From a sulfur-oxidizing endosymbiont of Gigantopelta aegis (GTDB taxonomy: Bacteria; Pseudomonadota; Gammaproteobacteria; GRL18), in assembly GCF_016097415.1 (NCBI RefSeq), contig NZ_JAEHGE010000001.1, positions 3,149,157 to 3,213,156 on the forward strand: a DNA stretch of 64,000 nt, written 5' to 3'. The translations under genes and the position numbers were made by a program. Positions 16,937-62,520 of the stretch are shown piece by piece. How positions within the stretch are numbered: the stretch's first letter is position 1; each line of letters opens with the position of its first letter. Below the pieces are notes generated by a model. It did no database searches. It was not told the DNA's origin and saw nothing but the letters and a program-made list of their open reading frames with translations.

Positions 16937-17129
16937 ATGATACGTGATTCTTTAAGCATTCTGGTTGTTGACGATATGAAATTCAGTTGTGAATTCATTC
17001 GCCGGGCATTAAAAAAAGAAGGTTATACTTCTGTTGATGTCGTCAACAATGCCCCTGAAGCCTTGCTACGCCTGCAAAAAAAATCAGTCGATGTTGTTTT
17101 AGCAGATTGGCTGATGCCGGAAATGGATG
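16937..17129 (+). pseudogene. Response-regulator gene, 5' part (cut by IS3 copy A)
   Basis: The start of a REC domain reads ILVVDDMKFSCEFIRRALKK, then VVLADWLMPEMD with the phospho-acceptor Asp. The IS3 element enters right after the codon for that Met-Asp pair. Removing the element and one copy of its ATG target duplication joins PEMD to GLELT and restores the frame. The 3' half is at 18624-19407. A GAGGGAAAA ribosome site precedes the ATG. Confidence 0.88.
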
Positions 17130-19609: not shown

Positions 19610-21117
<1,508 letters not shown>

Positions 21118-22175: not shown

Positions 22176-22194
22176 TAGTGATCAAAAGTAACTG

Positions 22195-24181: not shown

Positions 24182-24188
24182 TAAAGAA

Positions 24189-25622
24189 ATGGGACTGCAC
24201 CTTAATTGGCTTCATGATAAACGTGCTTATATTCAAGGTGCGATTAGTTTAGTGCAGCAAAACATCTTGATTGGTGGACTGCTAGCCATTATCATTTTAC
24301 TGCTATTTTTACGGGCAATATCTGCCACTGCGGTGGTGGCTTTGGCAATTCCTATATCAATTATTGCTACCTTCATCATCCTCCATCTTATGGGGCGCTC
24401 ACTGAATACCATCTCATTGGCCGGCATCTCTTTTTCTGTAGGTATGTTGGTTGATTCAGCCATTGTGGTGCTGGAAAATATTGATCGTCATAAAAAAATG
24501 GGCAAGTCATTTTTTGCTGCGGCCTATGACGGCACTAGCGAAGTATGGGGAGCCTTAATCGCATCTGCACTCACAACGATAGCGGTCTTTTTGCCCATTA
24601 TCTTTTTACAAAATGAAGCAGGGCAATTATTTAAAGATATTGCCATTGCGGTGACTGCTGCCGTGACATTTTCACTGTTTGTATCCATTTCAGTGATACC
24701 GATGCTATGGCATCAATTAATGACCTTGCATTCCCCTGAAACAAATACGCCCCGCCGCTTATTTTCTAATCGCCTGACACATGCAATTAATGACGCACTG
24801 GTTGCTGTCGGGCGCTGGATCAGTCATTTTATTATGCACTTAATCAGTCAAATTTTACAGACTAAGACACGCCGTTTAGTGACTATTTTTAGTTTAACAT
24901 GCCTATCTGCTTTAAGTGTTTATAGCCTCTTACCAAAAATGGAGTATTTACCTCAGGGCAATCGCAATTTATATTTCAACATTCTCATTCCACCCCCAGG
25001 CTTTCCTATCAGGAAAAAAAAATCCATTGGTGACTCTATCTACCAACAATTAAAGCCCCATATCAATCAGGATTATAAGGCCTATCCTGCTATAGAACGC
25101 TTATTTTATGTGGCATCCGGTAGCTTTATGATTTTTGGTGTCATTGCCGAAGAAGATAGTCGAATAAAAGAGCTCAAGCCCTTATTAATTCCTATTGTGA
25201 ATAGCTTTCCCGGTATTTTTGGCATCACTAAACAAGCTGGTGTGTTTGAACAAGGCATAGGCAAGGGCAGAACCATTGACATTGATATCAGCGGTGAAAA
25301 AATAGAACAACTTACTCTGGTGGGTGCGACCTTATTTGGTGCAATAAAAAAATCTGCACCTAAGATGCAAATCCGTCCCATTCCTTCGATTGAATTGCTC
25401 TACCCTGAAGTCTTACTCAAGCCCAAACACAGTCAATTACAACGCCTGGGTATGGATTTGTTATCACTTGGGATTTTCGCCGACGTGCTATTAGAAGGAC
25501 GCAAGATTGATGACTTTAAAGTAGAAGGTGAGAAAAAAATCGATTTGATCTTACAGGCTGATAAACAAGATATTCATTCTCCGGAAGAACTGTATTATAG
25601 CCTGGTGGCCACCATCGGGTAA
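24189..25622 (+). pseudogene. RND efflux permease, central part
   Basis: It resumes after IS1595 as MGLHLNWLHDKRAYIQGAIS, then membrane helices 2-6 (GGLLAIIILLLFLRAISATA; GISFSVGMLVDSAIVVLENI, which keeps the essential helix-4 Asp motif) and the second porter domain. A frameshift at about 25615 ends the ORF; the gene continues from 25628. Altogether about 1070 codons remain, close to the family norm of 1030-1050. Confidence 0.88.
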
Positions 25623-25627
25623 GTTAG

Positions 25628-26467
25628 TTGGTTTTAATACCCTGGCTGAGTTTGGAAGCAACCAGTGGCATCAGTGAAATTCGTCATTTTAACGGCAAAA
25701 GAACCATCACTTTAGAAGTGACGCCACCCGATGAGATGACCTTGCAAGAAGGCATGGAGCTCTTTGAACAAGAGATTATTCCCAGCTTAGAAAAACAAGG
25801 TAAGTTAAAGGGTGTGAGCATTTCTTTAAGCGGCACAACGGATAAACTCACTGAAACCGTTGATTCGATGTATCTCAATATCATCCTTGCCATTGTGATT
25901 ACTTATTTATTAATGTCAGCATTATTTGCTAATTTTGTTTATCCATTGATCATTTTATTTACTTTGCCTTTAGCGGCGGCAGGTGGCTTTATTGGTCTAG
26001 CTTTTACCAATCAATTTTTAGCCCATCAGCCACTCGATGTACTTACAATGTTGGGCTTTATTATTTTAATTGGTATTGTTGTTAATAATGCTATTTTGAT
26101 CGTTCATCAAGCATTGAATTTAATACGCAATGAAGCCTATGCACATAAAGAGGCGATCATTGAATCAACACGCAGTCGTTTACGCCCTATTTTTATGGGT
26201 TCTTTAACATCGTTATTTGGTATGTTGCCCTTGTTGCTATCGCCGGGGCCAGGTTCTGAGTTTTATCGAGGCTTGGGTAGTGTGATCACCGGTGGTTTGG
26301 CTTTCTCTACCATTTTTACTTTGTTTGTAATTCCATCGTTATTAATGTTTGTGATAGGGATGGAGAAGAAGCAACCCCTCAGTCCCCTTCTAAAAGAAGG
26401 GGAAGTCAAACAACGTTACAAGTACCTATCGTGCTTATTAATTACTGCTCACTTGCGCCCCGGATAA
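25628..26467 (+). pseudogene. RND efflux permease, C-terminal part
   Basis: It continues the second porter domain (HFNGKRTITLEVTPP) and helices 8-12 (IILAIVITYLLMSALFANFV; GFIILIGIVVNNAILIVHQA; GSLTSLFGMLPLLLSPGPGS; FSTIFTLFVIPSLLMFVIG). The last 35 residues (QPLSPLLKEGEVKQRYK onward) are not typical and may be read-through into unrelated sequence. It overlaps the tail of the decayed lipoprotein on the other strand. Confidence 0.85.
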
Positions 26468-39169: not shown

Positions 39170-39513
39170 TGATGTGTCACGGCTTTTTCATTAATCGACC
39201 AATTCTCCGGCGGCTTATATGAACGCCTTTTTCAGCCAGTTTTCTTTTAAGACGACGGGTTCCATAAGTCTTGCGACTGTCTTCAAACAGTTTTTTAGCT
39301 GCTCAGTAAGCGCTTCATTTTCTTTCTCTCTATCCGTTTTAGGAGAGCTAACCCAATCATAATAGCAACTACGGGAAACATCCATAAAACGGCACAGAAT
39401 CGTTACCGGGTAATCTTTAGCCTGATCAGTTATCCATGCGTACTTCACAAAGTTTCCCTTGCAAAGTACGCTGTGGCCTTTTTTAATAAATCACGCTCCT
39501 GGCATTCACATTA
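39170..39513 (-). mobile_element. Internally deleted IS3 derivative
   Basis: The left end TATGATGTGTCA and the last bases CACATTA match the two termini of the full IS3 copies, but only the orfA-orfB junction region (about 39182-39500) is kept between them. This is a 344-bp derivative. It keeps six As at the orfA/orfB frameshift site, where the three full copies have four. No clear 3-bp target duplication is seen (CTA versus CTT). Confidence 0.85.
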
Positions 39514-46586: not shown

Positions 46587-47186
46587 TTAATAATGATGCA
46601 CATTACCATCGACAAAGGAATGATAAACAACCAATACCACCCTCTCACCTTGTTCATTCACTTTAAACTTTTTATACACACCTTCTTGCAACATGATCTG
46701 CCGACACTTCATTTTATCTTTATAGCTAATACACACTTCACCCTTATCGTTGACTTCCCAATGCGAAGTAAATTTATGCTCACCTTGCATACCCCGTGTC
46801 GTACCATTGGGAGCTGCATAGACTGTCATGGTTATTTTTCGCGAGGGAATTTCAACTTGATAGGTTTTATCAGAAAATAATTTGGTCACTTCTGCTGCTG
46901 ACAGAATACGTTCAGGGCAAGCCGCTGGCGTATAAGAAACAACACTCACATCAGAACATGCGCCACAGCCATTCGCATAGGTTTTACTCTGCCCTTCAAT
47001 ATTCACACCACACACCGGCATATAATCCATAGTACACATCATTGGGCGCTCTTGAGGGCACGTTGTTTTACTGCTGTTTCCTGCTTTTTTTACAATAGTT
47101 TCTTCCATGCCATCGGCTGAAACAGTGGTAAAACTCACTAGCATCCCAAAATAAATTGTTAAGCACACAAATAAGCATTTTTTCAT
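46587..47186 (-). CDS. Secreted protein with Kazal-type inhibitor-like domain
   Basis: The 199 residues start with a signal peptide (MKKCLFVCLTIYFGMLVSFT, cleaved near VSADG). A Kazal-like segment follows, CPQERPMMCTMDYMPVCGVN then KTYANGCGACSDVSVVSYTP and AAC, with the CxVCG..G.tY.N.C.A pattern. Kazal domains inhibit serine proteases. The C-terminal 95 residues (ERILSAAEVTKLFSDKTYQV; GEHKFTSHWEVNDKGEVCIS; CRQIMLQEGVYKKF) look like a beta-rich unit with two Cys and resemble DUF995-type domains. The gene begins 7 bp from the IS30 element, which may have displaced its promoter. Confidence 0.75.
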   Translation of the reverse strand: MKKCLFVCLTIYFGMLVSFTTVSADGMEETIVKKAGNSSKTTCPQERPMMCTMDYMPVCGVNIEGQSKTYANGCGACSDVSVVSYTPAACPERILSAAEVTKLFSDKTYQVEIPSRKITMTVYAAPNGTTRGMQGEHKFTSHWEVNDKGEVCISYKDKMKCRQIMLQEGVYKKFKVNEQGERVVLVVYHSFVDGNVHHY

Positions 47187-47195
47187 TTCGCGGAT

Positions 47196-48191
47196 TCAAC
47201 TCTGAAGTGCAACGCAGGAAATTCCAGTTCTTGCAAATGATTTTTTCATTGCCTGGAATGGTGTTTGAAAGCCGAGTGCCTTTCTAGGTCTATTATTAAG
47301 TTTTTCCATCATGTTGTAAACCTCTTTATCAGTCACTTCTTTAAAGTCTGTATCTTTAGGAAAATATTGTCTAATCAGTCCATTAGTATTTTCATTTAAC
47401 CCTCGCTCCCATGAAGAATAAGGGTGGGCAAAATAAAATGCTGTATCAAGAGCTTTGCTTACCTGCTCATGATAAGCAAACTCTTTACCATTGTCTGCGG
47501 TAATACTATGAAGCCTGTCTTTAAAGGGTTTAAGCAATTGTATTGTTGCTTGTGTCACCCAATCAGCCTGTTTGCCATTCACTCTTGCTACTAATGTGTA
47601 AAGCGTTTTTCTTTCTACAATCGTGACCAGAGCACCACTGTGTCCTTTACCGATCACTGTATCAATTTCCCAGTCACCAACACGACGTTTATCATCAACA
47701 ATCTTAGGACGGTCATCAATGGAAATTCGATTAATTATTTGTCCTCGACTGCTTTTACCGTTACTACCACGCTTTTGGTATTTCTTTCCCTGACGCCTTA
47801 AATACTGATGTAAATCACCACCTTGCTTCTTATCATCCCATATGTGTTGATAAATACGTTCATGGCTAAGAAGTAGCATTTTGTCATTCAGTAACCAACC
47901 TGATATCTGTTCAGGACTCCACTGGTGCTGTGAAAGCTTTTCATCAATAAGGGCAATCATGTCATCCGTCATTTTAATTGCTTTAGAAGCATTGTAGCGA
48001 CGCTTAACGGCTTTTTCTTGAGCTTGCTTAAATCGATAGCCACGTAAACCAGCGTTGCGTTTAATTTCACGGCATATAGTAGATTTACTCACCTCAATCG
48101 CCTGAGCAATTTTAGACTGGGAAATGCCATTTTTAATCTCAGTCGAAATGTAGTATCTTTGTTCTTGTGTCAATTGCTTGTAAGTTCTCAT
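47196..48191 (-). CDS. IS30-family transposase
   Basis: The 331 residues start with the HTH MRTYKQLTQEQRYYISTEIK, then SQSKIAQAIEVSKSTICREI. The DDE residues are visible in RVGDWEIDTVIG, SITADNGKEFAYHE and SSWERGLNENTNGLIRQYFP, followed by the LNNRPRKALGFQTPFQ C-terminus typical of the family. It is the only fully intact transposase gene in the window and could be active. Confidence 0.95.
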   Translation of the reverse strand: MRTYKQLTQEQRYYISTEIKNGISQSKIAQAIEVSKSTICREIKRNAGLRGYRFKQAQEKAVKRRYNASKAIKMTDDMIALIDEKLSQHQWSPEQISGWLLNDKMLLLSHERIYQHIWDDKKQGGDLHQYLRRQGKKYQKRGSNGKSSRGQIINRISIDDRPKIVDDKRRVGDWEIDTVIGKGHSGALVTIVERKTLYTLVARVNGKQADWVTQATIQLLKPFKDRLHSITADNGKEFAYHEQVSKALDTAFYFAHPYSSWERGLNENTNGLIRQYFPKDTDFKEVTDKEVYNMMEKLNNRPRKALGFQTPFQAMKKSFARTGISCVALQS

Positions 48192-48302
48192 AAGTCACTT
48201 TACTCTTGCAGGAGAAAATGGCCGATTTTACAAGCAATTGGCCATTTTTTCGAGCAAATCATTGCTGTACTTATGATTTTTTTAGTAGCGCCGTCAGGCG
48301 CG

Positions 48303-48374
48303 TCGCTGGCTCATGAAATTCCCGGGGTGGCCATCGCTACGCTCGGCCACCCCGGGAATTTCATGAGCCAGCGA
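48303..48374. repeat. 72-bp palindrome with 30-bp perfect arms, GC-rich
   Basis: Arm 48303-48332 (TCGCTGGCTCATGAAATTCC, then CGGGGTGGCC) is the exact reverse complement of arm 48345-48374. The loop is ATCGCTACGCTC. It is far richer in GC than its surroundings and lies upstream of the IS30 transposase start, inside the element. Confidence 0.93.
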
Positions 48375-48581
48375 TAAACCAGCAAATATCACAAATACAA
48401 CCAAATAGTGTTGCACTTATGAGTTGAATCTAAGTTTTCAATTCCTTTGTTAAATTTATTTTATTTTACACATTAAATGTACGAATATCAATATGGCAGT
48501 TTAAGCAACTTATGGATATAAATGATTTAAGATAGTTTATAACAATAAAGCAGCAGGGGGATAATAGCGATGCCTGGTATT

Positions 48582-49775
48582 CTAAAGTGCTTTTTTATAG
48601 AGAAAAAATGCTGAAGCCATCAAAAGCAGACCAAAACTGGCAAAGGTTTGCGGTAAACCAAATAGATTGATCAGCGGTTGGGTAATAATCGGGCAAAGAA
48701 ATTGACCCAGCCCCATAAAGGTGACGATCCAACCTAAAGCACGGCCACGATCATGCTCTGGCACAATTTCAGCTAACCAGGTGTTAATATTCGGCAATAA
48801 TAGACCTGTTCCTATACCTATTATTGTTAAGGCAATTAGCACTTGATAGTATGAATGAGTAAACCAGATCCCCATAAAACCAATGCCTAAAATAAAAAAT
48901 GCCAACGCAAAGACCTGATTAAAATTCAGCCTGAACTTAGCCTGTTTGTATAATAGTGCCGATGTCCCTTTGAAACCAGTCCAACAGGCAATTGCCAAAC
49001 CAATATCTGAGGGCTGAATATTGCCCAAAGAAGTCAGATAAAAGGGCAAATGAAGCACTGTCATAAAGGTAAGTATCACCGTAACAAAGGTCATAAAATA
49101 AATAAAATAAAGTTTAGGATAAGCTTTAAATATCGACTGTTCCGTTTGTGCAGAATCAGGAATAGGCTTTGGGTCGTTTAAATCAATCGGTTGAATATAT
49201 TTGATAATAAAGGGTAATAATAACACCGGAAACAAGAAAATATAAAACGCAGAACGCCAACCATAATCGCCTAAATAACCGATCACCAGTAAACCTATAA
49301 TAGGTCCAAAGCCATACGCACTGGCATGATAGCCCATCATTTTTGCTCGTTGCTGCCCTATCGTATTACTGGCGATTAATGCCGTTGTTGAAGTAATAAT
49401 ACCAGCTTGGACAAAGCCTAAAAAACAGCGTGAGGCAAATATTAAATAGATTGAATCAAGAAAATAGGGCACGAAACCAATGACACTGAGACCCAAAATA
49501 GAGGCGATAAAGATATTTTTTTTACCATACAGATTTAACCAGCGACCAACTATTGGTGCCACCATAGCAGCTACAAAACCCGGCATAGTAACCAATAATT
49601 TTATCCAAAAATCGATATTCTCTACGCCTTCAAATTCCCTGGCCATTACGGGTAAAATGGAGACAATACTGGGCATATAAGTCGCGCAGGAAAGGCCGAC
49701 GATAATCGTTAATGCCCACAGAGTGGGGTTTTTTATTATGTATTTTTGACCAGAGCCTTGTTGAATAGTATTCAT
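48582..49775 (-). CDS. MFS transporter, probable siderophore or small-molecule exporter
   Basis: This 397-residue protein has twelve membrane helices. The inter-helix 2-3 motif reads GRWLNLYGKKNIF, a variant of the MFS signature, and helix 5 holds GFGPIIGLLVIGYLGD. The C-terminal half has LAEIVPEHDRGRALGWIVTF. It follows the TonB-dependent receptor gene by 53 bp in the same direction. Together with the NRPS relic at 58.2-59.5 kb this suggests export and uptake of a siderophore. The substrate cannot be read from the sequence. It is intact. Confidence 0.85.
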   Translation of the reverse strand: MNTIQQGSGQKYIIKNPTLWALTIIVGLSCATYMPSIVSILPVMAREFEGVENIDFWIKLLVTMPGFVAAMVAPIVGRWLNLYGKKNIFIASILGLSVIGFVPYFLDSIYLIFASRCFLGFVQAGIITSTTALIASNTIGQQRAKMMGYHASAYGFGPIIGLLVIGYLGDYGWRSAFYIFLFPVLLLPFIIKYIQPIDLNDPKPIPDSAQTEQSIFKAYPKLYFIYFMTFVTVILTFMTVLHLPFYLTSLGNIQPSDIGLAIACWTGFKGTSALLYKQAKFRLNFNQVFALAFFILGIGFMGIWFTHSYYQVLIALTIIGIGTGLLLPNINTWLAEIVPEHDRGRALGWIVTFMGLGQFLCPIITQPLINLFGLPQTFASFGLLLMASAFFLYKKAL

Positions 49776-49828
49776 CGGAGGTTAATGTATTTCCATGAAG
49801 GCATTTAAATTCATTGCTGAGCTCAGCC

Positions 49829-51907
49829 TTAAAAACTATAGCTTGCTTTGATACCATAAGTTCTGGGCGGCATGATATTTCCTGCTATGCCATTTTGAGT
49901 ATCAAAATCAACGGTACCATTAAAATAATCTTCATCGGTTAAATTATCACCATATAAAGTCAACGTTAGCTTGTCATCATAAGTGACTAGACTGACACTG
50001 GCGTTCACTAAATCATAATCAGATTGGCCTTTGAGGGAATTATTATCCGCAGTATAAAACACATCATCCTGCCAATAATAATTTACACGATAAACAATCG
50101 TACCGGTACTCATATTTTGAAAATAACGTAGCGTGAAATCGGTCGTCCACTCTGGTGCCGCATTGAGATAGTTGCCGGAAATATCATCATTATCCAAAAA
50201 CTTATCATAAGTAGCATCAAGCCAGGCAATACCAGCATCAAGCTGCCAATTAGCCGTAGGCAGATAAGAGACTTCAAACTCTGCACCATTAATATCAGCA
50301 CTGGCAGCATTTTTAACCACAATGACACTATTTTCAAACGACTGCACCTGAAGATCAGTATAATCATAATAAAATAAACTGGTATTAAATCTCAGCTTGT
50401 TATCCAGCCAATTGGATTTCATGCCCATCTCATAGGCCGTTAAATATTCAGGTTTAAAATCAGACACAGCAATCGGTGAAGTAAAATTAAAACCCCCGCT
50501 CTTAAAGCCTTCTGAGATTGAACCAAAGAAAAATACATCTTCGGTCATATAAAAGTCCAGGCCTATTTTAGGAGTGAATTCTGACTCGGTAATTTTATTT
50601 TTACCTGCACCGCCAAAAAAGCTAGTACCTTTAATTTTCTTTTCTTCACGGGTATAACGACCGCCTAAAATGAGCGACAGGCGCTCAGTCATCGCGTAAT
50701 TACCCTGAAAATAGGTAGCATAGGAAGTGGTATCGGTATCCCCTTCAAACTTCAAAGACAAAGGAATAAATAATAACTTACTTTCAGTAAAATACTCATT
50801 GTCTTCCTTAAAATAATACAGACCCGCCTGCCAAGTGAAAATACCGGTTTTCTTAATCAATTGAAACTCTTGTGAAAACTGAGTTTGATCTTCTTTTAAT
50901 AACACATCATTTCTGACAAATTCCGTATAGTCCGAGTCGACACGTAATTTCCAATCAGACCCCCTATAGGCCGAAATAGATTTAAACTGGTAATCATCTG
51001 AGATATCCCAGATAAACTTACCGTGTACACCCCAGTTATTTAGTTTGTTCTCTGGATTGAAATTAGGATTAATTTTAAACGGATCACTAATATAGGTAGA
51101 TGCATTGGTCATAGTACCATCGGCTAGACGATACGTGGGTTTGCGTTGCTGACCCGAGTCATCTTTTTTATAATAATCCGAGCTTAAAATAAATTCTGCA
51201 GAATCCGTTAATAACCAGCGTAAAGTACCTCTAAGACCATAGTCATTCTCATCGTTAAAATTCGATTGACTAGCACCTCCCGTACCCAGATTTTTTACAT
51301 ATCCATCACTATCATTGGTGATAAAGGATATGCCTGCCATCAACTTGTCTTCAATTAATGCGCCACTGGCCGCACCAGAAAAGCGATAAGTATCATAATT
51401 ACCCACATCAACACTGGCTTTAATACGACGTTCATTCGTCGGTAGATAAGGCTTGATATTAATGGTTCCCCCTACAGAATTTCGACCATAGAGTGTGCCC
51501 TGTGGGCCGCGCAACACCTCAACCTGTTCCACATCAATAAAATTGCTGAACATCATCATGGGGCGGGAAAGATAGACATCATCATAGTGAATCGTACTAC
51601 TGGCTTCACCACCGGGGAAGACATTATTCGTGCCCACACCCCGGATATAAATTTGCGAATACTCCACATTTTGAGAAATATTTAAATTAGGCGTTGCATT
51701 CGCTAAGCCTTTGACATCACGGATATTTCTGCTCGATAACTGTTCTTCATCAAACGTCGTTATTGATATCGCTGTTGTTTGTAAGTCCGTTTCACCCATT
51801 CGGGTCGCTGAAACGGTGATGTCTTCTAATTGATAAGCCTGATCGGCGGCGATATTAACGATGGGATAAAGCACAAGGAAAGTAGATAATAAATAACTTA
51901 ACTTCAT
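49829..51907 (-). CDS. TonB-dependent outer-membrane receptor
   Basis: The 692 residues begin with a signal peptide (MKLSYLLSTFLVLYPIVNIA). A TonB-box-like stretch (QLEDITVSATR), the plug domain (SRNIRDVKGLANATPNLNIS; IYIRGVGTNNVFPGG; VEVLRGPQGTLYGRNSVGGT) and a 22-strand barrel follow, ending in a terminal aromatic (IKASYSF). Ligands are probably ferric siderophores or similar; the RGPQGTLYG motif is of the general type. It is transcribed ahead of the MFS gene and behind the large kinase gene. Confidence 0.92.
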   Translation of the reverse strand: MKLSYLLSTFLVLYPIVNIAADQAYQLEDITVSATRMGETDLQTTAISITTFDEEQLSSRNIRDVKGLANATPNLNISQNVEYSQIYIRGVGTNNVFPGGEASSTIHYDDVYLSRPMMMFSNFIDVEQVEVLRGPQGTLYGRNSVGGTINIKPYLPTNERRIKASVDVGNYDTYRFSGAASGALIEDKLMAGISFITNDSDGYVKNLGTGGASQSNFNDENDYGLRGTLRWLLTDSAEFILSSDYYKKDDSGQQRKPTYRLADGTMTNASTYISDPFKINPNFNPENKLNNWGVHGKFIWDISDDYQFKSISAYRGSDWKLRVDSDYTEFVRNDVLLKEDQTQFSQEFQLIKKTGIFTWQAGLYYFKEDNEYFTESKLLFIPLSLKFEGDTDTTSYATYFQGNYAMTERLSLILGGRYTREEKKIKGTSFFGGAGKNKITESEFTPKIGLDFYMTEDVFFFGSISEGFKSGGFNFTSPIAVSDFKPEYLTAYEMGMKSNWLDNKLRFNTSLFYYDYTDLQVQSFENSVIVVKNAASADINGAEFEVSYLPTANWQLDAGIAWLDATYDKFLDNDDISGNYLNAAPEWTTDFTLRYFQNMSTGTIVYRVNYYWQDDVFYTADNNSLKGQSDYDLVNASVSLVTYDDKLTLTLYGDNLTDEDYFNGTVDFDTQNGIAGNIMPPRTYGIKASYSF

Positions 51908-52065
51908 TTCAACCTCAATTTTACTAACGATGTTTGCAGCGATGCTTTACAGTTCTGGCCAAGGCACATGATGCTCTGTCATTAAGATTAGATGACAATT
52001 TTCTACAATTCAAGGCCGATGTAAAAAAGTAATTTTTAGATACGTTCTGATTCTTCAACTTAAAT

Positions 52066-55000
52066 TTATACCTTGTTTTTGACCCCCAGCTTAATGGTAA
52101 ACACTGCGCCTTTACCCACACCTTCACTTTGTGCCGAGATGCTACCATCATGTGCAATGAGGTAATTGGCGCAGGCGTGTAGATTAAAACCTGAAGTAAT
52201 TGAAGAAGGTGTAGTATTTCGCCGTTCTTGTTTTTTTTCATTAGCATAATCACCGGCAAAAATCCGTTCTTTTAGTTCCGGAGCAAAACCAATGCCATTA
52301 TCCTGAACACATAAAACAATCGCCTCTGATGAACCGACTGCAGTCTCAGTACCTCCCTTCTCAAGGTAAGTACTGATACGTATTTGACGCTGCTCTATGG
52401 CAATGCCATTCATTGCCTCACAGGCATTTTTAACAACACTGAGTATAATCTGCATCAACTGATATTCTTCAGCATACAATTTGGGTAAATCAGTACATTG
52501 TAATTGCACCTCAATATGCTCTGAACGTAGTATATTATCTAACATTTTCAGGGCATCATTGAGCAGTTCATTGACATCCAAATAATCATTCATCGGTTTA
52601 ACAGTCGTATATTTTGACTGCAAGTGAATAAACTCTTCAATACGCCGAATGGTATTACAGGCTTGTTCCAAATTATCTGCGTGACTTTGATATTCTGTTG
52701 CCATAATATTCGGTAACATGGAGGTGATTTTAGTCAACTTCATGCGCTCTGATTCTTCAAGGCCATTATGTGTCGCTAGCGCATCAGCCAACTTTTGCAT
52801 CAATTTTGGTGCTTTATTTACCAGTTCACTATTATGCATAGCACTATAGGTTTGTTCTGTCTTGGTTTTCAACGGAGTCAAAGCATTGCCAATATTGTGC
52901 ATCACTTCAATGGCAATTTCAGCCTGTCCCGATTCCCGCGCTTGTTGTAATAATTGTGCCTGAGCATTTTTTAACTCATGAGTACGCTCTTTAACTTTAT
53001 CTTCTAAATTTTCATATAATAAAGCATTCTCCAGCGAAATGGCTGCCTGTGCTGCCATCATCTGCATGAGTTGCTGACGACTCTGATGAAAAACGTGGGT
53101 GGCAAGTTTGTTTTCCAAATACAATAGTCCCGTTAATTTTCCTTTGGTAAGTACAGGCTGACATAATATAGATTGCTGCTCTCTATCCTGGACAAAATAA
53201 GGATCGTCATAAAAAGCTTGATAAGCTTCACGAGCATCATCCAGCGCAATACCTTTTTTCACTTTAATCACATGTTGTAATAAGGTTTTAGGTATTTCCT
53301 GATATTCACTCAATGGCGTATTGTGTAAAATTTGTCGAGTGCGATTATCCATGCGGCATTCACCCGCAATATGCCACTTTGATAGATGGTTAGAGCTTTC
53401 AGTCGATTCTTTAAGTAATAATATCGTACGCTGAGCACCCGCATTTTCCATCACCGTACTCAATAGTCGGTCCAACACACTCGACAGGCTTAATTCACTG
53501 GATAAGCTATGGGCAAATTTCATCACGGTATCCAGATCCATACCAACGGATGTCTCATTTTTGAGGCTTGAAGTAGAACTGACGGTGCGAATACTTCCAC
53601 TCGTATCCGGCTTTGACTTACTAAGCTTATTCAATAACTGTGGATATTCTTTTTCTAACTGTTCTGTTTTAGCCTTGGCTCCCCATCGTGCCCAGGTATA
53701 ATAGGCTTTCATCATATAAGCTTGGGCAATAATGGTTTTATTACGTTGCAAATAAAATCGAGCGCTCAATTCACAGGCCAATGCCTCTTCTTGTACAAAC
53801 TTATTTTCTATAGCATAATTTATCGCATCATCGTAATAATCTTCTGCGCTAAAAAAATCACCCTGCACCCGATAAAATTCTGCTTCTACCAATGCCCATT
53901 TATGCGCAAAGTTCATGGGTGCATACTGCTTCCAAAAACTCATTTTTGTTTGGTTGTCTATGACTTGTTTCAGGGTAAAAGCTTGCTCTTCCAGTGTTTG
54001 CTCCGAATAATGCGCTAAACGTATCAATGACTCATAAAAATTTAATTCAGGAACAAAGATGTTACTGCTTAAGGCATCCTTATATTCCACTGCCTGATTA
54101 ATAACTGTATATGCTCTTTGGATATCAAAAAATACAAAGGCCAGTATGGATTGATATAACTTTAAAAAACAAATTGCAGTTCGATTACCCATTTTTTGAT
54201 ATTGGAGTAAACTGACCTGTTCATCATAAAGCTCTCCCTGCAAAGCGATTGCATTTTCTTGCGCCCCCATTAAGTTCAATGTAACCTGATGTAACATCTG
54301 AGTATAATTTAAAGGCAGATCCTGATGTAGGCTGGCAATAAACTGCTCATAATTCATCAATTGCCTTTCCAATACAGAAAGCTCTTCTCCTGCAAAAAAG
54401 GCATGGGTAGATGCCCACCAGGCGCCTGTCGCCGAAAAAAATAAATCGCCTACCTCCAAACCACTGAGAGATGCTTCTTTTAAAGGTTCTATACTCTCTC
54501 TAAGGGCTTGCTTATAAAACTGATTGCCATAAACAACGGTCCAAGTCTTAGATTTTTGAGAAGTCGCTTGTAGTTTGTCTAATAAGGCTAAGGCCAACAG
54601 ACCAAACTCATAACCCGCATTAATATCATTGAGTTTGCTGGATAAAATATTGCCATAAGCCGCATAAGTAGACAACATCTCTGGCGCATTACCATACTGA
54701 ATGGCAAACTGAACACGTTTAAACACCGTCAGAGCAAAGATAACGGGACTAATCATATAAAAAGCCTGATTCAGCTTATCCAATAAGCCCATTCCAGATA
54801 AAATCATGGTCTCTGTCATCGCTGGCAAATTAATTAAAGAGGCTGTGCTATTCCCCTTCAGCATCGCCTGTGTTTTCATCAGTTCAGCTTGAAAATCATC
54901 ACTCGTCGCTTGTGCTGGAAATTCAAAACCACATTGCTTTAACATTGGCAATGCATATTGGATCGCCGCTTTGAGATCATTTTGTGCAATCAGACTCAGA

Positions 55001-57579
55001 CAATGCAATTGATGAGCCTTTATCGTATCAGTGAGCGTTTTGCTCTGCGCAAATAAAATCTCAGCCCTTTGCTGCTGTACTTGATAATCACCTAATAAGA
55101 AAGCGACTTCGATAGCTTCATCATACAAACCCAGTGCCAAGGTATAATCCGTCTGCCAGCAGGTCTCAGTCTCCAGCAAAGATAACCCCGCTTTAATATA
55201 TTGCCCTGCGGAGTCATAAGCAGTTGAGCGCCGGGCAGCTTGACCGGCCTGATAATTTAATGTCGCCAACTCAATACGTTCTGTTGATACGATCACTAGA
55301 TGCTGAGCCAAATTCAACTGATTAACCACATTAAATAACCAGCCAATCTTATCCTGCTGTTGGTGTTGCTTTTGCTGTTTAAGCGAACAACCAATATCAA
55401 AATGAATTTGGGCTTTCTGTACTTCGGGGAGCAAGGAATAAGCTGCCTGCTGAATGCGATCATGGGCAAAATCAAAACGCAGATGAAGCCCTTTTATATC
55501 GTCTTCCCGGTGGTCATCCTGAGCACTCTGCAAATCAATATCTGGCACTAGTTTATAGTCATCGCCCACGGGAATTAGTAGCTTAGCCTTAACTCCCTGC
55601 CAACAGTTTTTAAGACATTGACTCACAGTGCTGTCAGTCACTTTTGCTAATGTGGCCAAATCAAATTGATGACCAAAACAAGCAGCATAACTGAGAATAT
55701 TTATAATAGCCGGTTCTAAACAACGCAGGCGGGTAGCCACAAATTCCACGACGTTTTCACTGGCAGCCAATTGCACAATGGATTCCAGTTCATAAATCCA
55801 ATGTTCCTGCTTAAAGTCATAACTCAGTAAGCTCTCATCCTTTACCTGTTGCATGAACTGATGAACAAAAAATGGGTTGCCCTGGGTTTTTTTGTACACC
55901 ACTTGTGTTAATGGCTGAGCATAATCACTCTGACAGAGACAGGCATCCATTAGCATGTCGTTCAAATCGGTTTCACTCAAGGCCTTCAGAAGCAAGTGAT
56001 TTATTGGCAAACCACTTTGAATTAAACTGTCCAGAGTCAAATGTAATGGATGCTCCGCCGGGATTTCATTATCCCGGTAGGCACCGATAAACAATAAGGA
56101 CTGATGGGCACAATCCAACTGTGGATCAGACCGATAATTCAATATAACGGATAATAGCTGTAAGGTGGCAGAGTCTATCCATTGCAAATCATCAAGAAAT
56201 AAAATTAAAGGATGCGCCTGGGTCGTGAATATCTGTAAAAACTGTTGGAATAAATGATGAAAACGATAAGTCGATGCCACACCGGATAATTCTTCAACCC
56301 CAACTTGTGGACCAATGAGTTGCTCCAACTCAGGGACAATATCCACCAATAATTGCCCCTGAGTACCCAGTACTTGTTGAATCTGCATCTTCCAGACTTG
56401 TTGCTGGTCACTATTTTCAGCCAATAACTGCTTAATGAGACAGCCTAAGGCCTGACTCAGGGCTGAAAAAGGTGTATCTCGTTTGAGTTGATCAAATTTA
56501 CCCTTAATAAAATAGCCTCGACTGCGCGTCATAGGCTTATGAACTTCATTAACCAGCGCTGTTTTACCCACACCCGATAGTCCACGGATGAATATAGCCT
56601 CCATATTTCCTTCGAACACCCGTTCAAATGCCCCGAGAAAGGATTTCACTTCATCAAAGCGACCATAAAGCTTAGAATTTAATTGGAAGTGCCGAGCAAC
56701 ATCGGTCTGACCCAGGGTAAAAGAAGGGATCGCCCCCTTTTCTTGCCAAAGTTGTTGGCAGTATTGTAAATCGGCCATCAAACCCTCTCCACTTTGATAG
56801 CGCTCCTCGGCATTTTTCGCCATCAGTTTTTTTACTATTTCATTAATGGCGGGAGGAATTTCTGAGTGAAGTACCAACAAAGACTCGGGTTCTTTTGCCA
56901 AATGACAATGTACCAATTCCATTGTATCTTCTGAATAAAAGGGTAATTGAGCACTTAATAATTCATAAAACGTGACCCCAAGGGAATAAAAATCCGTGCG
57001 ATAATCAACACCACGATTCATTCGTCCGGTCTGTTCCGGAGACAGGTAGCTAAGGGTGCCGGAAAGCTCATCAGGATTTTGCAAGCTCTGGTTCTCAGTA
57101 TTCAAGACAGAAGCAATACTAAAATCAATAAGAGCTATTTGCAGGCTTTGAGGCTGAATAATAATATTGCCTGGTTTAATATCTCTATGGGTTATACCAA
57201 GTTCATGTAGTTGTTCCAAAATATTGGCCAATTGGCAGGCAATATTTAAAAACACATCAATATTTAAAGGCTGAGCATCAGCATAGCGTTTTAGGTCTAA
57301 CGACTGGCTATCCGGCATCACCAGTGCCAGCTTGTCCTGCCAGGACTCCATTGCCAGCGGTCTTACAACACCATCCAGTTGTATTTCTTTAAGCAGGTTA
57401 TATTGGTGACAGAAGTTGAGCAACTCATTGTGGCTGGGCTGATCACGTTTCAGGAACTTAACAATGACCGGACACTGATCGCTTTGTCTCACACCACGAT
57501 ACACCATACTTTTAGCCCCTTCATAGAGGGCTTCGTTGATATCATAACCTGTGAGTTGAGGGGGTAAAATTTCGCTCAA
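52066..57579 (-). CDS. Trifunctional Ser/Thr kinase - AAA ATPase - GAF - histidine kinase sensor
   Basis: This 1837-residue protein has, in order: a eukaryotic-type kinase (about 10-270; HRDIKPGNIIIQ catalytic loop, DFSIAS in place of DFG, LSPEQTGRMNRGVDYRTDFY); an AAA/STAND ATPase (Walker A GLSGVGKTALVNE near residue 330, FLDDLQWID for Walker B); a long helical repeat region (about 650-1300); a GAF domain (about 1345-1500); a coiled coil; and an H-box-like segment, EVMHNIGNALTPLKTK. The HATPase domain (NACEAMNG; DNGIGFAPELK; GFNLHACANYLIAHDGS) closes it. No receiver partner is adjacent. DFS rather than DFG, and the atypical H-box, leave both kinase activities open. The ORF is intact over 5.5 kb. 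Confidence 0.93.
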   Translation of the reverse strand: MSEILPPQLTGYDINEALYEGAKSMVYRGVRQSDQCPVIVKFLKRDQPSHNELLNFCHQYNLLKEIQLDGVVRPLAMESWQDKLALVMPDSQSLDLKRYADAQPLNIDVFLNIACQLANILEQLHELGITHRDIKPGNIIIQPQSLQIALIDFSIASVLNTENQSLQNPDELSGTLSYLSPEQTGRMNRGVDYRTDFYSLGVTFYELLSAQLPFYSEDTMELVHCHLAKEPESLLVLHSEIPPAINEIVKKLMAKNAEERYQSGEGLMADLQYCQQLWQEKGAIPSFTLGQTDVARHFQLNSKLYGRFDEVKSFLGAFERVFEGNMEAIFIRGLSGVGKTALVNEVHKPMTRSRGYFIKGKFDQLKRDTPFSALSQALGCLIKQLLAENSDQQQVWKMQIQQVLGTQGQLLVDIVPELEQLIGPQVGVEELSGVASTYRFHHLFQQFLQIFTTQAHPLILFLDDLQWIDSATLQLLSVILNYRSDPQLDCAHQSLLFIGAYRDNEIPAEHPLHLTLDSLIQSGLPINHLLLKALSETDLNDMLMDACLCQSDYAQPLTQVVYKKTQGNPFFVHQFMQQVKDESLLSYDFKQEHWIYELESIVQLAASENVVEFVATRLRCLEPAIINILSYAACFGHQFDLATLAKVTDSTVSQCLKNCWQGVKAKLLIPVGDDYKLVPDIDLQSAQDDHREDDIKGLHLRFDFAHDRIQQAAYSLLPEVQKAQIHFDIGCSLKQQKQHQQQDKIGWLFNVVNQLNLAQHLVIVSTERIELATLNYQAGQAARRSTAYDSAGQYIKAGLSLLETETCWQTDYTLALGLYDEAIEVAFLLGDYQVQQQRAEILFAQSKTLTDTIKAHQLHCLSLIAQNDLKAAIQYALPMLKQCGFEFPAQATSDDFQAELMKTQAMLKGNSTASLINLPAMTETMILSGMGLLDKLNQAFYMISPVIFALTVFKRVQFAIQYGNAPEMLSTYAAYGNILSSKLNDINAGYEFGLLALALLDKLQATSQKSKTWTVVYGNQFYKQALRESIEPLKEASLSGLEVGDLFFSATGAWWASTHAFFAGEELSVLERQLMNYEQFIASLHQDLPLNYTQMLHQVTLNLMGAQENAIALQGELYDEQVSLLQYQKMGNRTAICFLKLYQSILAFVFFDIQRAYTVINQAVEYKDALSSNIFVPELNFYESLIRLAHYSEQTLEEQAFTLKQVIDNQTKMSFWKQYAPMNFAHKWALVEAEFYRVQGDFFSAEDYYDDAINYAIENKFVQEEALACELSARFYLQRNKTIIAQAYMMKAYYTWARWGAKAKTEQLEKEYPQLLNKLSKSKPDTSGSIRTVSSTSSLKNETSVGMDLDTVMKFAHSLSSELSLSSVLDRLLSTVMENAGAQRTILLLKESTESSNHLSKWHIAGECRMDNRTRQILHNTPLSEYQEIPKTLLQHVIKVKKGIALDDAREAYQAFYDDPYFVQDREQQSILCQPVLTKGKLTGLLYLENKLATHVFHQSRQQLMQMMAAQAAISLENALLYENLEDKVKERTHELKNAQAQLLQQARESGQAEIAIEVMHNIGNALTPLKTKTEQTYSAMHNSELVNKAPKLMQKLADALATHNGLEESERMKLTKITSMLPNIMATEYQSHADNLEQACNTIRRIEEFIHLQSKYTTVKPMNDYLDVNELLNDALKMLDNILRSEHIEVQLQCTDLPKLYAEEYQLMQIILSVVKNACEAMNGIAIEQRQIRISTYLEKGGTETAVGSSEAIVLCVQDNGIGFAPELKERIFAGDYANEKKQERRNTTPSSITSGFNLHACANYLIAHDGSISAQSEGVGKGAVFTIKLGVKNKV

Positions 57580-57989
57580 AAAAATATCTTCTAAATTTAT
57601 GAAGTGATTGGCTAGAAAAACTGATGGAATACTTTGAAATTATAGAACAAATCAAGCCAATTTCAATGCTTACAGCAAAGTAGTAATCATATTGCTAAGA
57701 TTCTTTCTAGTTGAAAAGCAACCATATAAGTATTGAAGTGAGTATATTGTAGCGCACAAGACTCCCATCGTACAATTTCCCAAATTATTCATCATACGAT
57801 TTGGCTAAAATCACTTCATTTTCCCACACTCCCATCATAAGATATTTTCCCCTAGCCACACTAAAATTATACGTTCAACCAAACTGCATTATAGTGCACA
57901 CCAAATTATCATCGTCTTTTTTTAGTAAAATAATGATTTCAGTGCGTGATTAAGCTAAGAAGAGATAATTATAAAATAAATGGGATTGG
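57580..57989. other. Intergenic region, nothing recognised
   Basis: 410 bp of AT-rich sequence separate the large kinase start from the AAA fragment. It should hold the kinase promoter. CCCACACTCCCATCATAAGA at about 57816-57835 and CAAGACTCCCATCGTACAAT at about 57757-57776 are loosely similar and could be a degenerate direct repeat. I see no ORF or RNA gene. Confidence 0.5.
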
Positions 57990-58217
57990 CTAATTCACCT
58001 GTTGCTTGATGAGTTCTTCATGAGAGCGCCAGTGAGGTTGAATTAAGATATTATTGACATGCTGAATCGAAACGTTCCGCTTGCCTTCACTACAAGCTTC
58101 AATCAGACTGCCATAACAGAGATTACGACATAATCGCAGATTGCCTTGAGCGGAGCGTATGATAAACTCCGTCGCTGCACTATCAAAGGTATTTAAGCCC
58201 ATATAAAGCTTAATCAA
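57990..58217 (-). pseudogene. ExeA/MshM-like AAA ATPase, C-terminal fragment
   Basis: The 75 codons read FDSAATEFIIRSAQGNLRLC, then RNLCYGSLIEACSEGKRNVS and IQHVNNILIQPHWRSHEELI. The sensor-type GN.R..NLC helix and the following helical lid are typical of the C-terminal part of ExeA/GspA-class and transposon-type AAA ATPases. Walker motifs and everything upstream are missing. The frame is open into the end of the NRPS relic, whose stop overlaps the ATG at 58217. It looks like a deletion product, not a small gene. Confidence 0.5.
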
Positions 58218-59493
58218 TATTATTTATTATATCTTGAAGCCGTTTAGCAATAAGTTCTACATTAGGAGCCTGCATCATGGTGAGATGATTACCGACAACA
58301 TCAATTAATTCAAAGTCATTCATTGCTAATTGCATCCAGCTTGACTCCGGATTAGCAGGATTAAGTTCATCTCGGCTCAAGGCTCGAAAATACAAAATAT
58401 CGCCTTGATACCGCTTTGTTTGATAGGTAAACATTGCACTCTGATTTGCCTTAAACATAGTCAGATAATGGCGCAACTGCTCAATCGAAGTATCCGGTAA
58501 CAAACGACTTGCTAATTGTGCATGATTCAAGAATAGCTCTAACTGTTCTTCTTCATTTAAATCCGCTAATTGTTCGCTATAAATTATCGGTGGCTGCTTT
58601 AATAGTAATGCGGCATTGTAAAGCTTTTCCAGCACACCATTCTTTGATTCATAGGTCGGCGCTATAGCAACGGTAAGTGGCGTAACCCCAGCAAGTATAC
58701 ATCCCCAAAAAACAGGAAAAAAATCTTCCAGCGTTGCCAATTGCAAAATAACAACATCATTTGCCTTAAGACCTTCTTTTTGTAGCCCAGAGACAACCGT
58801 TTTTGCTTTTATCAGTAGTTCATTATAGCTTTGAAAAACATCAGAGCCATCTTGTTGCACGAAAATAATCCCACTATCCGAATGTTTTTGTGCTGCAAAT
58901 AAACCCTCCGATAATGTCATTGGTAAATGAGACTCATTAGTTAATAATAATTCTCCTTCACTTAATGCAATGACATCAGTTTTCTCTCCCTCTTCGTAAT
59001 CAATATCATCAATATCTTCCTGGGACATTTCTGTTTTCCAAACTGGACATAAGTGTGATAGATGCAGTGGTTCACATTGATAGTCTTTATATTGTGCAAG
59101 CACTGAATAATCTAATAGTTCAGGCGTGTCTTCTAGTTCATGACTCCATGATTCGAGCAATTGCTTATTTACAACAACAAGCGGTAACAACTGCTTGTCA
59201 TCTATTTGTCCAGACTCTGTTAATGGCATATTAGTAATAGCGATATATGCTTCCGGCAATATGCTATTTGGCAAACAAGATTTGAGATATTGGCGCAAAT
59301 CATTTGCAATAAATTCAGCATCTAAAACAATGTAAGCCACAAGCTGCCGCCCACTTTCATGACATTCTTTAGCAAGTACACGGCAATCAATAATATTAGG
59401 ATAAGCAAATAAATTGTATTCTATTAACTCTGGAAAGATAGTTTGTGTGCCTATAATAATTTCACGGTCATATCGATATTCGAGTATACTCAT
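58210..59493 (-). pseudogene. NRPS-like relic (adenylation parts plus thioesterase tail)
   Basis: Three pieces are fused in one 427-codon frame. The first (ELIEYNLFAYPNIIDCRVLA; AYIVLDAEFIANDLRQYLKS; LPEAYIAITNMPLTESGQID) is the C-terminal subdomain of an adenylation domain, lacking its catalytic core. The second (SGIIFVQQDGSDVFQSYNEL; VVILQLATLEDFFPVFWGCI; AGVTPLTVAIAP) is the start of another adenylation domain, without the AMP and Mg sites. The third (RYQGDILYFRALSRDELNPA; MNDFELIDVVGNHLTMMQAP) matches the end of a thioesterase, with the catalytic His in GNHLTM. Carrier and condensation domains are gone. The 5' side ends 22 bp from IS3 copy C. Nearby MFS and TonB genes suggest a lost siderophore synthetase. 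Confidence 0.72.
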
Positions 59494-59806
59494 TTGTTTT
59501 ACCCTTTTTTATTACTGATGTGTCAACACTTTTCCGGACAGTTTTCTAAATATTTTTTTGGCTGTTTCAAGTGATTTTTGTCATTTTGTATTTCCTATCA
59601 TTTTAGTTTCTCATGTTAACTTTAAACAGATGAAGAGAAAGGGCTTTGCCCTCTGGAACGATAGAGCCGTTCCATTCACCCAAGGTATTTTCACAACGGT
59701 AATGATCCTGTTACAATATCTTCACGGCACAGGCTGAGGAGCCGATGGCCGTCAACGGTAATGGGCGGCATTTATGTCGCCTTTTACCCCTCTTCAATCA
59801 ATCGAT

Positions 59807-60451
<645 letters not shown>

Positions 60452-60722
60452 TCAGCCAGTTTTCTTTTTAAGACGACGGGTTCCATAAGTCTTGCGACTG
60501 TCTTCAAACAGTTTTTTAGCTGCTCAGTAAGCGCTTCATTTTCTTTCTCTCTATCCGTTTTAGGAGAGCTAACCCAATCATAATAGCAACTACGGGAAAC
60601 ATCCATAAAACGGCACAGAATCGTTACCGGGTAATCTTTAGCCTGATCAGTTATCCATGCGTACTTCACAAAGTTTCCCTTGCAAAGTACGCTGTGGCCT
60701 TTTAATAAATCACGCTCCTGAA

Positions 60723-60965
60723 TCACTTTTGCCAATTCTTTTTCAGACGTTTTACTTCATCATAAATGTGTTCATCACTTCTATTGGCTACCGTCTTCAC
60801 CGGTTTGGAATATTTACTGATCCAGGTATGTAGAGTATTTACATTAACACCTAGCTCCCTGGCAGTCTGAGAAACGGGTTGATCCGTCTCATTAGCTAAT
60901 TTGACAGCTGATTCTTTAAATTCTGATGTATAGCTTTTATTCGGTTTTTTTGTTTGATCATTCAT
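60723..60965 (-). pseudogene. IS3 OrfA (truncated by frameshift)
   Basis: The 80 codons encode the HTH protein MNDQTKKPNKSYTSEFKESA, then VSQTARELGVNVNTLHTWIS. The normal continuation, KRLKKELAKVIQERD, is broken after KRLKK by loss of one A. OrfA provides DNA binding and the leucine zipper for the transposase. Confidence 0.9.
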
Positions 60966-61028
60966 TTTAGGTCACACTTTTTATCTTTTAGTTATTTTAA
61001 GTTGTGTGTCCGGTTAAGTATAGCCACA

Positions 61029-61613
61029 TTAAATTTCTTCAGTCATATAAAAGGCTGTTTTTAGTTTAAAGAAACTATCGATCATGCCTTCGAGAATTTT
61101 GACCATGCCTTTTACTTTAATTTCAAGATTCCAACGCATCGAGAGAGAATCAGCCAATTGTAAGACTTCCTCGTCATCAAATGGTTTTTTCAAGTACAAT
61201 AAGCGATCGGTAAATCCAACTTGTTTCACAATATCTGATACTGGTGCATCTGAATACGCAGTGACTATAATAATTTCAATTGTGGGGTCAATGTTGCGCA
61301 CCTCACGCACTGTTTTTATACCATCCCAACCCGGGGGCATACGCATATCAGAAAATAACACGCTATAGGGTCGTCCTTCCGCAATAGCTTGTTTAACCAT
61401 TTTGTAACCTTGTTCACCCTGGCTGGCTGTATCCACATCAAAAATACGTTTTTCCGGCTCATCTACATCAGTGATATCATCACTCAATAAGTCATTCAAT
61501 AGACTTAAAGTAGACTCTTTAGCAGATGATTTTTTTGGACTTAATATTGATTCAAAGATACTCAATATATTGGGGTCGTCATCAATGATTAATACACGAT
61601 TATTATAAGGCAT
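61029..61613 (-). pseudogene. Receiver-domain protein, truncated at its C-terminus by IS3 copy C
   Basis: I chose the ATG at 61613, behind AAAGGA; the longer ORF start lies in the preceding gene. The REC domain has VLIIDDDPNI, the phospho-acceptor in VLFSDMRMPPGWDG, IIVTAYSDA and the Lys in LYLKKPFDDEE. An atypical 50-residue Ser/Lys/Asp-rich insert lies between the first helix and strand 2 (about residues 25-60). After SMRWNLEIKVKGMVKILEGM the gene runs into the IS, whose terminal TAA supplies the stop. A related REC-PAS-kinase gene at 62584-64000 suggests the lost part could be a PAS/kinase module. Confidence 0.75.
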
Positions 61614-61623
61614 GGTTTTTCCT

Positions 61624-62520
61624 TTATACCGGTAATACAATAGTAAATTGCGCGCCTTTACCTTCACCAACACTTGTCGCTTTAATCTCACCGCCAATGC
61701 TGGTTAGAAAACTGGCACAAAAATGCAGGCCAAAACCTGAACCATCTTTTTTAGATGTATAGCCAAAATCAAAAAATCGTGCTTTCATCGCTGGGTCAAA
61801 GCCTAGACCACTGTCTTTTATTGTAATAATAACATTCTGCTTCTCGACATAGGCCTTCAACAGAATGTGCTTGTCACTCTGAGGATTAGCATCAATGGCT
61901 TCATAAGCATTTTTTAATAAGTTGACCAGAACTTGTAATAACTTTGATTCTTGTATTTTCAGGTAAGGCACTTCTGCTATTTCTTTCACAACTTCAATAT
62001 TACGACGTTTAATTGACTCACTTTGCATACTAATTGCGTCATCAATTATACGTGAGATGTTCACATCACAAAGATCGGCTTTTAAATGTGAATAACGCAT
62101 GTGTAAGGCTATGATACTGGCAATATGTTCCTGCTTGTCTCTAATATTTTCTACATCACTGATGTTTTGTGCATATTCTTCTTCTAAACCATCCGGTAAG
62201 ACTTTAATGATTTTTAGTAATTTTTGTTTTTCGTCTTCTGCTAGTGGACAATCAGGAATAGCTATTTCTAAGGGTTGTAATATTTTTCTTAGATGATTAC
62301 GTAAGGGGCTTTTATCTAAGCGTTGCAAGAGCATCGATACTGCAATTTTTGATGGTGTTAGGGTATTACCAATATTATGTAAAACACCCACTGATAGCTC
62401 AGCGATTCCGGCTTCGTATTCTTGTTGTAAAAGCGTATTTTTTGCTTCCTCAAGTTCCATACTTAATTGCTCGACTTGAGTCTTTACGTTTTCATAGTCA
62501 CTATTATTTTTATTTTCCAT
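61624..62520 (-). CDS. Histidine kinase-like ATPase with HNIG motif
   Basis: The 298 residues begin with a coiled coil (VEQLSMELEEAKNTLLQQEY). Next comes the H-box-like AELSVGVLHNIGNTLTPSKI. The HATPase domain carries the N-box LVNLLKNAYEAIDA, the G1 box IKDSGLGFDPAMKAR and the G2 box GSGFGLHFCASFLTSIGGEI. There is no sensory or membrane domain, so it is cytoplasmic. The stop lies 10 bases before the REC gene at 61029-61613, with which it forms a pair. The HNIG motif matches that of the 1837-residue protein at 52-57 kb. An ATG at 62520 is the clear start. Confidence 0.88.
   Translation of the reverse strand: MENKNNSDYENVKTQVEQLSMELEEAKNTLLQQEYEAGIAELSVGVLHNIGNTLTPSKIAVSMLLQRLDKSPLRNHLRKILQPLEIAIPDCPLAEDEKQKLLKIIKVLPDGLEEEYAQNISDVENIRDKQEHIASIIALHMRYSHLKADLCDVNISRIIDDAISMQSESIKRRNIEVVKEIAEVPYLKIQESKLLQVLVNLLKNAYEAIDANPQSDKHILLKAYVEKQNVIITIKDSGLGFDPAMKARFFDFGYTSKKDGSGFGLHFCASFLTSIGGEIKATSVGEGKGAQFTIVLPV

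Follow-up and report, generated by a model that had tools for sequence, protein, structure and literature searches.

A fragment of a peptide synthetase gene close to a TonB-dependent receptor and an MFS exporter raises the question of whether a cell has stopped making a secreted compound while keeping the means to take it up, and whether that compound was a siderophore. The locus considered here lies in a stretch of 64,000 nucleotides (the window) from the sulfur-oxidizing endosymbiont of Gigantopelta aegis. The genome of the window (G000) is assembled in 11 contigs, and the one carrying the window spans 4.2 Mb. The species is represented by one strain, and the genus by 16 genomes including G000. 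A search for the fragment across 96 genomes gave strong matches (E 1e-97 or better) in four, namely G000 and the congeneric genomes G004, G005 and G008, all of one genus. The features of the locus are collected in Table 1. A first-pass annotation had given the same positions for the synthetase relic, receptor and exporter; the large kinase gene between relic and receptor was absent from its gene trio.

Table 1. Features of the synthetase locus and its surroundings (window coordinates).
Feature	Position (nt)	Strand	Description
IS30-type element	47189-48434	-	downstream of MFS gene; bounds from second copy in L003
MFS exporter	48582-49775	-	397 aa, intact; MFS_1; 83% to G008
TonB-dependent receptor	49829-51907	-	692 aa, intact; Plug and barrel (PF07715, PF00593 over cut-off)
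Ser/Thr-kinase/AAA/GAF/histidine-kinase gene	52066-57579	-	1837 aa, intact; between relic and receptor
Synthetase relic	58210-59493	-	427 aa; Asub-like ~7-105, linker, partial loading A to ~309, thioesterase (TE) tail of ~120 residues
Deletion scar	58558-58575	-	around relic residues 307-312
IS3-type element	59516-61031	-	ends TGATGTGTCA...CCACATTA; no 3-bp target duplication; cuts response-regulator gene
Truncated response-regulator gene	61029-61697	-	residues 1-197 of 344-aa G004 protein, 76.8%; end inside IS
Histidine kinase gene	61624-62520	-	part of regulatory island that precedes synthetase in relatives

The relic had been described as adenylation and thioesterase pieces joined by an in-frame loss of the core domains, and both parts of this description hold. 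Pfam places AMP-binding_C at residues 24-95 and, below the gathering score, positions 16-98 of the 384 of AMP-binding at residues 213-297. The thioesterase tail alone has no Pfam match; it aligns at 73-74% with the last part of the thioesterase domain of an intact relative. Residues 6-316 match G008:C60:5517-6449 and residues 306-427 match G008:C60:18126-18491, within the same open frame. The relic joins residues ~1-309 of the G008 protein to ~4210-4330 with the frame kept, and therefore ~3,900 of 4330 residues (~11.7 kb), about nine tenths of the enzyme, are gone. Missing are the A3 loop, the PCPs, C, KS, AT, the KRs and the TE serine. The N-terminal AMP-binding_C piece might be taken for a by-product of the deletion, but this is ruled out because it is also native to the intact enzymes. 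In the relatives a short similar motif (E-[EQ]-L / L-N) occurs on both sides of the scar; the scar carries no IS, and its two sides have no long repeat in common. With intact homologues in relatives and core domains missing here, the relic falls in the NRPS-PKS synthetase pseudogene class. A structure model of the relic has a mean pLDDT of 42, with only residues ~10-80 near 70 (alignment of 7 rows only). Downstream, a short frame (nt 57990-58203, minus strand) resembles by eye the C-terminal end of the AAA ATPase of a transposition operon and is possibly a mobile-element remnant.

A second lesion lies upstream, where the IS3-type element ends 22 bp before the relic ATG. In relatives this place is occupied by the promoter together with a CheB/CheR/GGDEF/EAL gene and 1.5 response-regulator genes. 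In G004 the matching interval, which runs from the regulator cut in G000 to the start of the synthetase, measures about 5.7 kb. It holds the remainder of that regulator, another response regulator and a gene for 1297 aa, the G008 counterpart of which is CheB/CheR/GGDEF/EAL. Elsewhere in G000 no ortholog of this last gene was found: of 33 matches, the best covers residues 742-1283 only, at 41%, so that the promoter and a regulator have been lost too. Two of the four IS3-type copies with inspected ends have a 3-bp duplication, and two (the relic copy and one at locus L003) do not. Further near-identical copies are found at nt 17127-18623 and 19610-21117 of the window, with 3-bp duplications CAT and GTC, and partial pieces at nt 1-314 and 39180-39501. 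The IS30-type element contains a perfect 30-base inverted repeat with a 12-base loop (nt 48303-48374).

Synthesis in G000 is dead, as had been proposed: the enzyme core is lost, and the condensation family has no match in any of the 11 contigs. G000 has just one other match to the relic, a piece at 37% that belongs to another broken synthetase. Four KR matches occur in this genome, only one of them in a large frame (2685 aa, C1:1320626), which lies ~11 kb from the single PPTase match of G000 (a 247-aa ORF) and is taken for a putative PfaA-type synthase. The second large synthetase of G000 is also broken (L003:2330-12555; G000:C1 about 2,907,300-2,917,600). It consists of a 979-aa frame with AMP-binding, PP-binding and a truncated ketosynthase, followed by an IS30 copy and by the IS3 copy without target duplication.

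A search of relatives for the full cluster, as the first-pass annotation had advised, recovered fuller synthetases in G008 (4330 aa), G005 (4304 aa) and G004, where the same gene is divided by a contig break. Pfam recognises in the G008 protein two AMP-binding stretches, one then followed by AMP-binding_C, one Condensation, two KR and three PP-binding domains, KS, AT and Thioesterase. The ancestral enzyme is therefore a hybrid NRPS-PKS whose loading module is of the alpha-keto-acid A-KR type; the label 'NRPS relic' was right as to a synthetase remnant and wrong as to a plain NRPS. The domain order is read as [Asub-like]-A(keto acid)-KR-PCP-C-A(aromatic)-PCP-KS-AT-KR-ACP-TE. The best solved relatives of the loading A domain are StsA (1.1e-125) and McyG (2.4e-110), with other acyl-AMP ligases from 1.5e-45 down, and the segment after it matches the KR of StsA (9e-64). 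The relic belongs with NRPS-PKS enzymes, and not with a non-NRPS acyl-CoA ligase family, though its A-domain piece is of the keto-acid/acyl-AMP type and not an amino-acid A domain. An orphan Asub-like domain stands at the very N-terminus of the intact synthetases, ahead of the loading module (L025:5502-5831, with G005 and G004 alike in this respect); extra Asub domains occur in keto-acid modules. For the second A domain, the residues at what we take to be the GrsA positions spell DAFTIAAVWK in G008 and, in both G005 and G004, DASTVAAVCK; these codes are presumably aromatic, Phe- or Tyr-like. The predicted product joins an alpha-hydroxy acid to an aromatic amino acid, with a single reduced extension of two carbons.

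The other genes of the locus are in a different state from the relic. Receptor, exporter and kinase are all full length without stops, and the Pfam domains expected of receptor and exporter span most of each protein, in agreement with their earlier description as intact. The receptor is 82% identical to that of G008, 53-54% to those of G004 and G005, and 56% to that of L024, a locus in another genome (G096). Receptor orthologs (53% or more) and the synthetase co-occur in the same 4 of the 16 genus genomes, side by side in each. The synthetase neighbours in relatives are the TonB receptor and a large sensor kinase, with an MFS exporter in G008; in G005 and G004 the ortholog of the 1837-aa kinase adjoins the synthetase, and in G008 it lies downstream of the MFS gene. 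At L024, receptor, MFS and kinase genes follow in a row at a contig end, with MFS after receptor. A search of G096 with residues 1-1345 of the G008 synthetase found no ortholog, but since the receptor lies at a contig end, L024 says nothing about linkage there. An O-methyltransferase gene, located between receptor and MFS genes in G008, was considered as a further loss and dropped, as G004, G005 and L024 also have no gene there. A TonB/ExbB/ExbD-type operon lies ~9-14 kb upstream, beyond the window end, and is kept in G004 upstream of the synthetase. Its gene row (TPR, TonB, ExbD, ExbB and a long MotA-ExbB gene; L004:12150-16572, or 67993-72415 on the window scale) resembles what we take to be a TonB2-type system. 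Elsewhere in the window, translations show an RND-type efflux operon (nt 21090-26467), the pump gene of which is apparently split by a transposase gene (nt 23307-24176). A secreted-looking protein with a Kazal-type protease-inhibitor domain is encoded at nt 46587-47186.

Between G000 and G008 synonymous sites are near saturation (dS of 1.90 for the TonB receptor, 1.86 for MFS and 1.70 for part of the kinase), and for the N-terminal part of the relic dS is saturated. The dN/dS values are 0.056 for receptor and MFS alike, 0.079 for the kinase part and 0.160 for the relic tail; the last lies within the range of 0.12-0.25 seen between intact relatives over the same stretch. The receptor is constrained, but most of this signal predates the loss of synthesis, and so is no proof of present use. 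Under neutrality a stop would be expected in the relic after a median of 14 substitutions, and in 95% of cases by 61, which is ~5% of the G000 branch if the branch is half of dS. As the fused frame is still open, either the deletion happened recently or constraint continues to act on the frame, and the core deletion appears to be recent. Relative-rate counts (changes in G000 only vs G008 only, with G004 as outgroup) are 29 vs 30 for the receptor, 46 vs 20 for the kinase, 69 vs 24 for the N-terminal part of the relic and 4 vs 7 for its tail. Neutral drift after the deletion was rejected as the cause of the faster N-terminal part, since the tail is not faster and the kinase, although intact, is. 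Mixed ancestry of the N-terminal part is just as likely, because there G008 is nearer to G004 (73%) than to G000 (57%).

Whether the product was a siderophore is less readily settled. The receptor was classed by ranking against solved structures; its own structure model is poor (mean pLDDT 45). In a sequence search (phmmer) the pesticin receptor was best (5.2e-24), and the seven solved sequences reached at E 1e-5 were six siderophore receptors and one heme receptor; the pesticin receptor is counted here, on our assumption, as the yersiniabactin receptor. It also comes first in the profile search (3.3e-41); the 19 sequences of that search contain heme, YncD/PQQ and pseudopaline (CntO) receptors too. 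The best NCBIfam match is the siderophore-receptor family TIGR01783, but at 161.3 bits against a cut-off of 223.5. The receptor is not ranked among nickel or sugar receptors, the groups that would have spoken against a siderophore locus. The receptor class, and feoB and Fur-like sites in G005 and G004, speak for such a locus; the lack of chelator genes and transport partners among the genes scanned, and of a Fur-like site before the window receptor, speaks against it. No chelator biosynthesis gene (catechol, hydroxamate, salicylate, beta-OH-Asp etc.) was recognised in the proteins scanned near the synthetases of G008 and G005, the G008 contig being 25 kb; such genes can lie elsewhere in the relatives' genomes. 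Under a rule given in PMC12971057, a siderophore NRPS locus needs two of PF00593, PF01032 and PF01497. In the genes scanned at the three loci (window, G008 and G005) only PF00593 is present, with no FecCD (PF01032) or periplasmic-binding (PF01497) partner.

The signs of an iron link differ between genomes. A Fur site before nt 51907, which the first-pass annotation had advised testing for, was not found: the best candidate in the window receptor promoter scores 11/19, which 301 of 500 shuffles match. Nor is there a Fur-like site at the G008 receptor (427/500 shuffles as good). In G005 the gap between feoB and the receptor holds a 14/19 Fur-like site, a score reached by 12/500 shuffles. Directly before the G004 receptor the best is 13/19 (105/500), and two overlapping 16/19 sites lie upstream of a feoB-like gene that an IS and other sequence now part from the receptor. 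The scan identified feoB and an ArsP-like permease adjoining the receptor in G005; the similar same-sized genes of G004 are recognised by size and similarity only. Fur is present in G000, and FeoB has no match there at E 1e-20, while G008 has two and G005 has one, beside the receptor. PF00593 has eight rows in G000, two of which share one frame; one is the window receptor, and the seven others mean that it need not matter for iron. That the lost product was a siderophore is unproven.

The reading preferred here, with a probability of about 0.55, is that of a decayed secondary-metabolite locus in which two lesions ended synthesis while receptor, exporter and kinase still work, making the cell a non-producer and at most a user of the relatives' compound. 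The IS3-type element stands in place of the upstream stretch of ~5.7 kb (on the G004 scale), and the in-frame deletion, the scar of which carries no IS, removed ~11.7 kb of the enzyme core. Receptor, exporter and kinase would still be working proteins, and the most that the cell could do is import what relatives produce, in all likelihood complexed with iron. A receiver-only ('cheater') state, as the first-pass annotation had suggested, is plausible. Its strict form, in which the lost compound was a ferric siderophore and selection maintains the receptor since neighbours still make that siderophore, is possible, though the odds are somewhat against it. It would account for the receptor ranking nearest to siderophore receptors, for its nearness to feoB and Fur-like sites in G005 (14/19) and G004 (16/19), and for Fur without a FeoB match in G000, and there is a precedent in Bordetella of transporters with a small NRPS fragment (PMC12971057, in the relevant part). 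It sits badly with the lack of a known chelator pathway and of the transporter pairs in the scanned genes, with a predicted backbone of alpha-hydroxy acid, aromatic residue and beta-hydroxy acid that has no usual chelating group, and with receptors in G000 and G008 that have no Fur-like site. Alternatively, the product was no siderophore but a signal, an enzyme inhibitor or another metallophore, and the receptor imports it or its metal complex for another purpose. The statine-like logic of the module order, the presumably aromatic A-domain code and the large sensor kinase and two-component genes alongside point that way; the solved relatives of the receptor and the feoB adjoining it in G005 do not, and we regard this alternative as doubtful. 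Equally doubtful, but worth naming, is that the relatives' compound, of alpha-hydroxyacyl-aromatic-beta-hydroxy-acid type without the usual chelating groups and imported through TonB, represents a new metallophore class or a signal, with the window strain a natural non-producing receiver.

Passive decay, in which receptor, exporter and kinase are of no benefit and merely not yet lost, is unlikely, if less so than the last two readings. The deletion looks recent, and the second large synthetase of G000 is likewise broken beside IS copies, so that loss is general; yet the three neighbours are full length without stops, and the receptor shows no rate increase (29 vs 30). The 427-codon open frame and the tail dN/dS of 0.16, inside the 0.12-0.25 of intact relatives, could suggest that the fusion is a domesticated protein under selection. 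This is very improbable for a gene with its own promoter replaced by an IS, a predicted structure with confidence near 70 at residues ~10-80 only (mean pLDDT 42), and neither the thioesterase serine nor most of the A domain. A collapse of the gene by assembly error is more improbable still, given a contig of 4.2 Mb, scar sides that share no long repeat and no condensation domain anywhere in the 11 contigs. Under the preferred reading of a decayed locus with working neighbours, this is a clean case of a former producer that no longer makes its compound: each lesion can be read, and the relatives supply fuller versions to compare it with. The locus also draws attention to a family of hybrid NRPS-PKS enzymes, so far uncharacterised, whose genes keep company with those of a TonB receptor and a large sensor kinase. 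The product, its receptor and the link to iron could be tested there as a set.

Among known systems, the nearest solved relative of the receptor by both sequence and profile is the pesticin (presumed yersiniabactin) receptor 4EPA. It is a distant relative, and the window receptor scores under the TIGR01783 cut-off. The loading module is like the A-KR-T module of StsA from cereulide-type depsipeptide synthetases (6ULW, 6ULX; PMC11253843) in having A followed by KR. Section 2.5 of that paper ties I306 and M415 of StsA to keto-acid A domains, and these positions are V and M in all three relatives (placed by alignment; same motifs), likewise a hydrophobic residue and Met. Unlike the StsA module as that section presents it, the relatives' A-KR opens a three-module NRPS-PKS with an extra N-terminal Asub-like domain, and the window keeps only a piece of the loading module. 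A dead synthetase beside kept transporters is already a known pattern. In a narrow search of the literature on cheaters and receptors, no closer case emerged than the following two. Bordetella petrii DSM 12804 is described in the pertinent part of PMC12971057 as a likely 'cheater', with transport genes kept beside a small NRPS fragment and the full version in congeners, as here. It differs in that its full version is for a putative graminine metallophore, whereas the window locus has no known chelator pathway and its enzyme is a hybrid NRPS-PKS. Certain Vibrionaceae species have only the piscibactin receptor FrpA (PMC5812596), and share with the window locus a receptor present and biosynthesis genes absent; the relevant part of that report describes no synthetase fragment, whereas the window has one.
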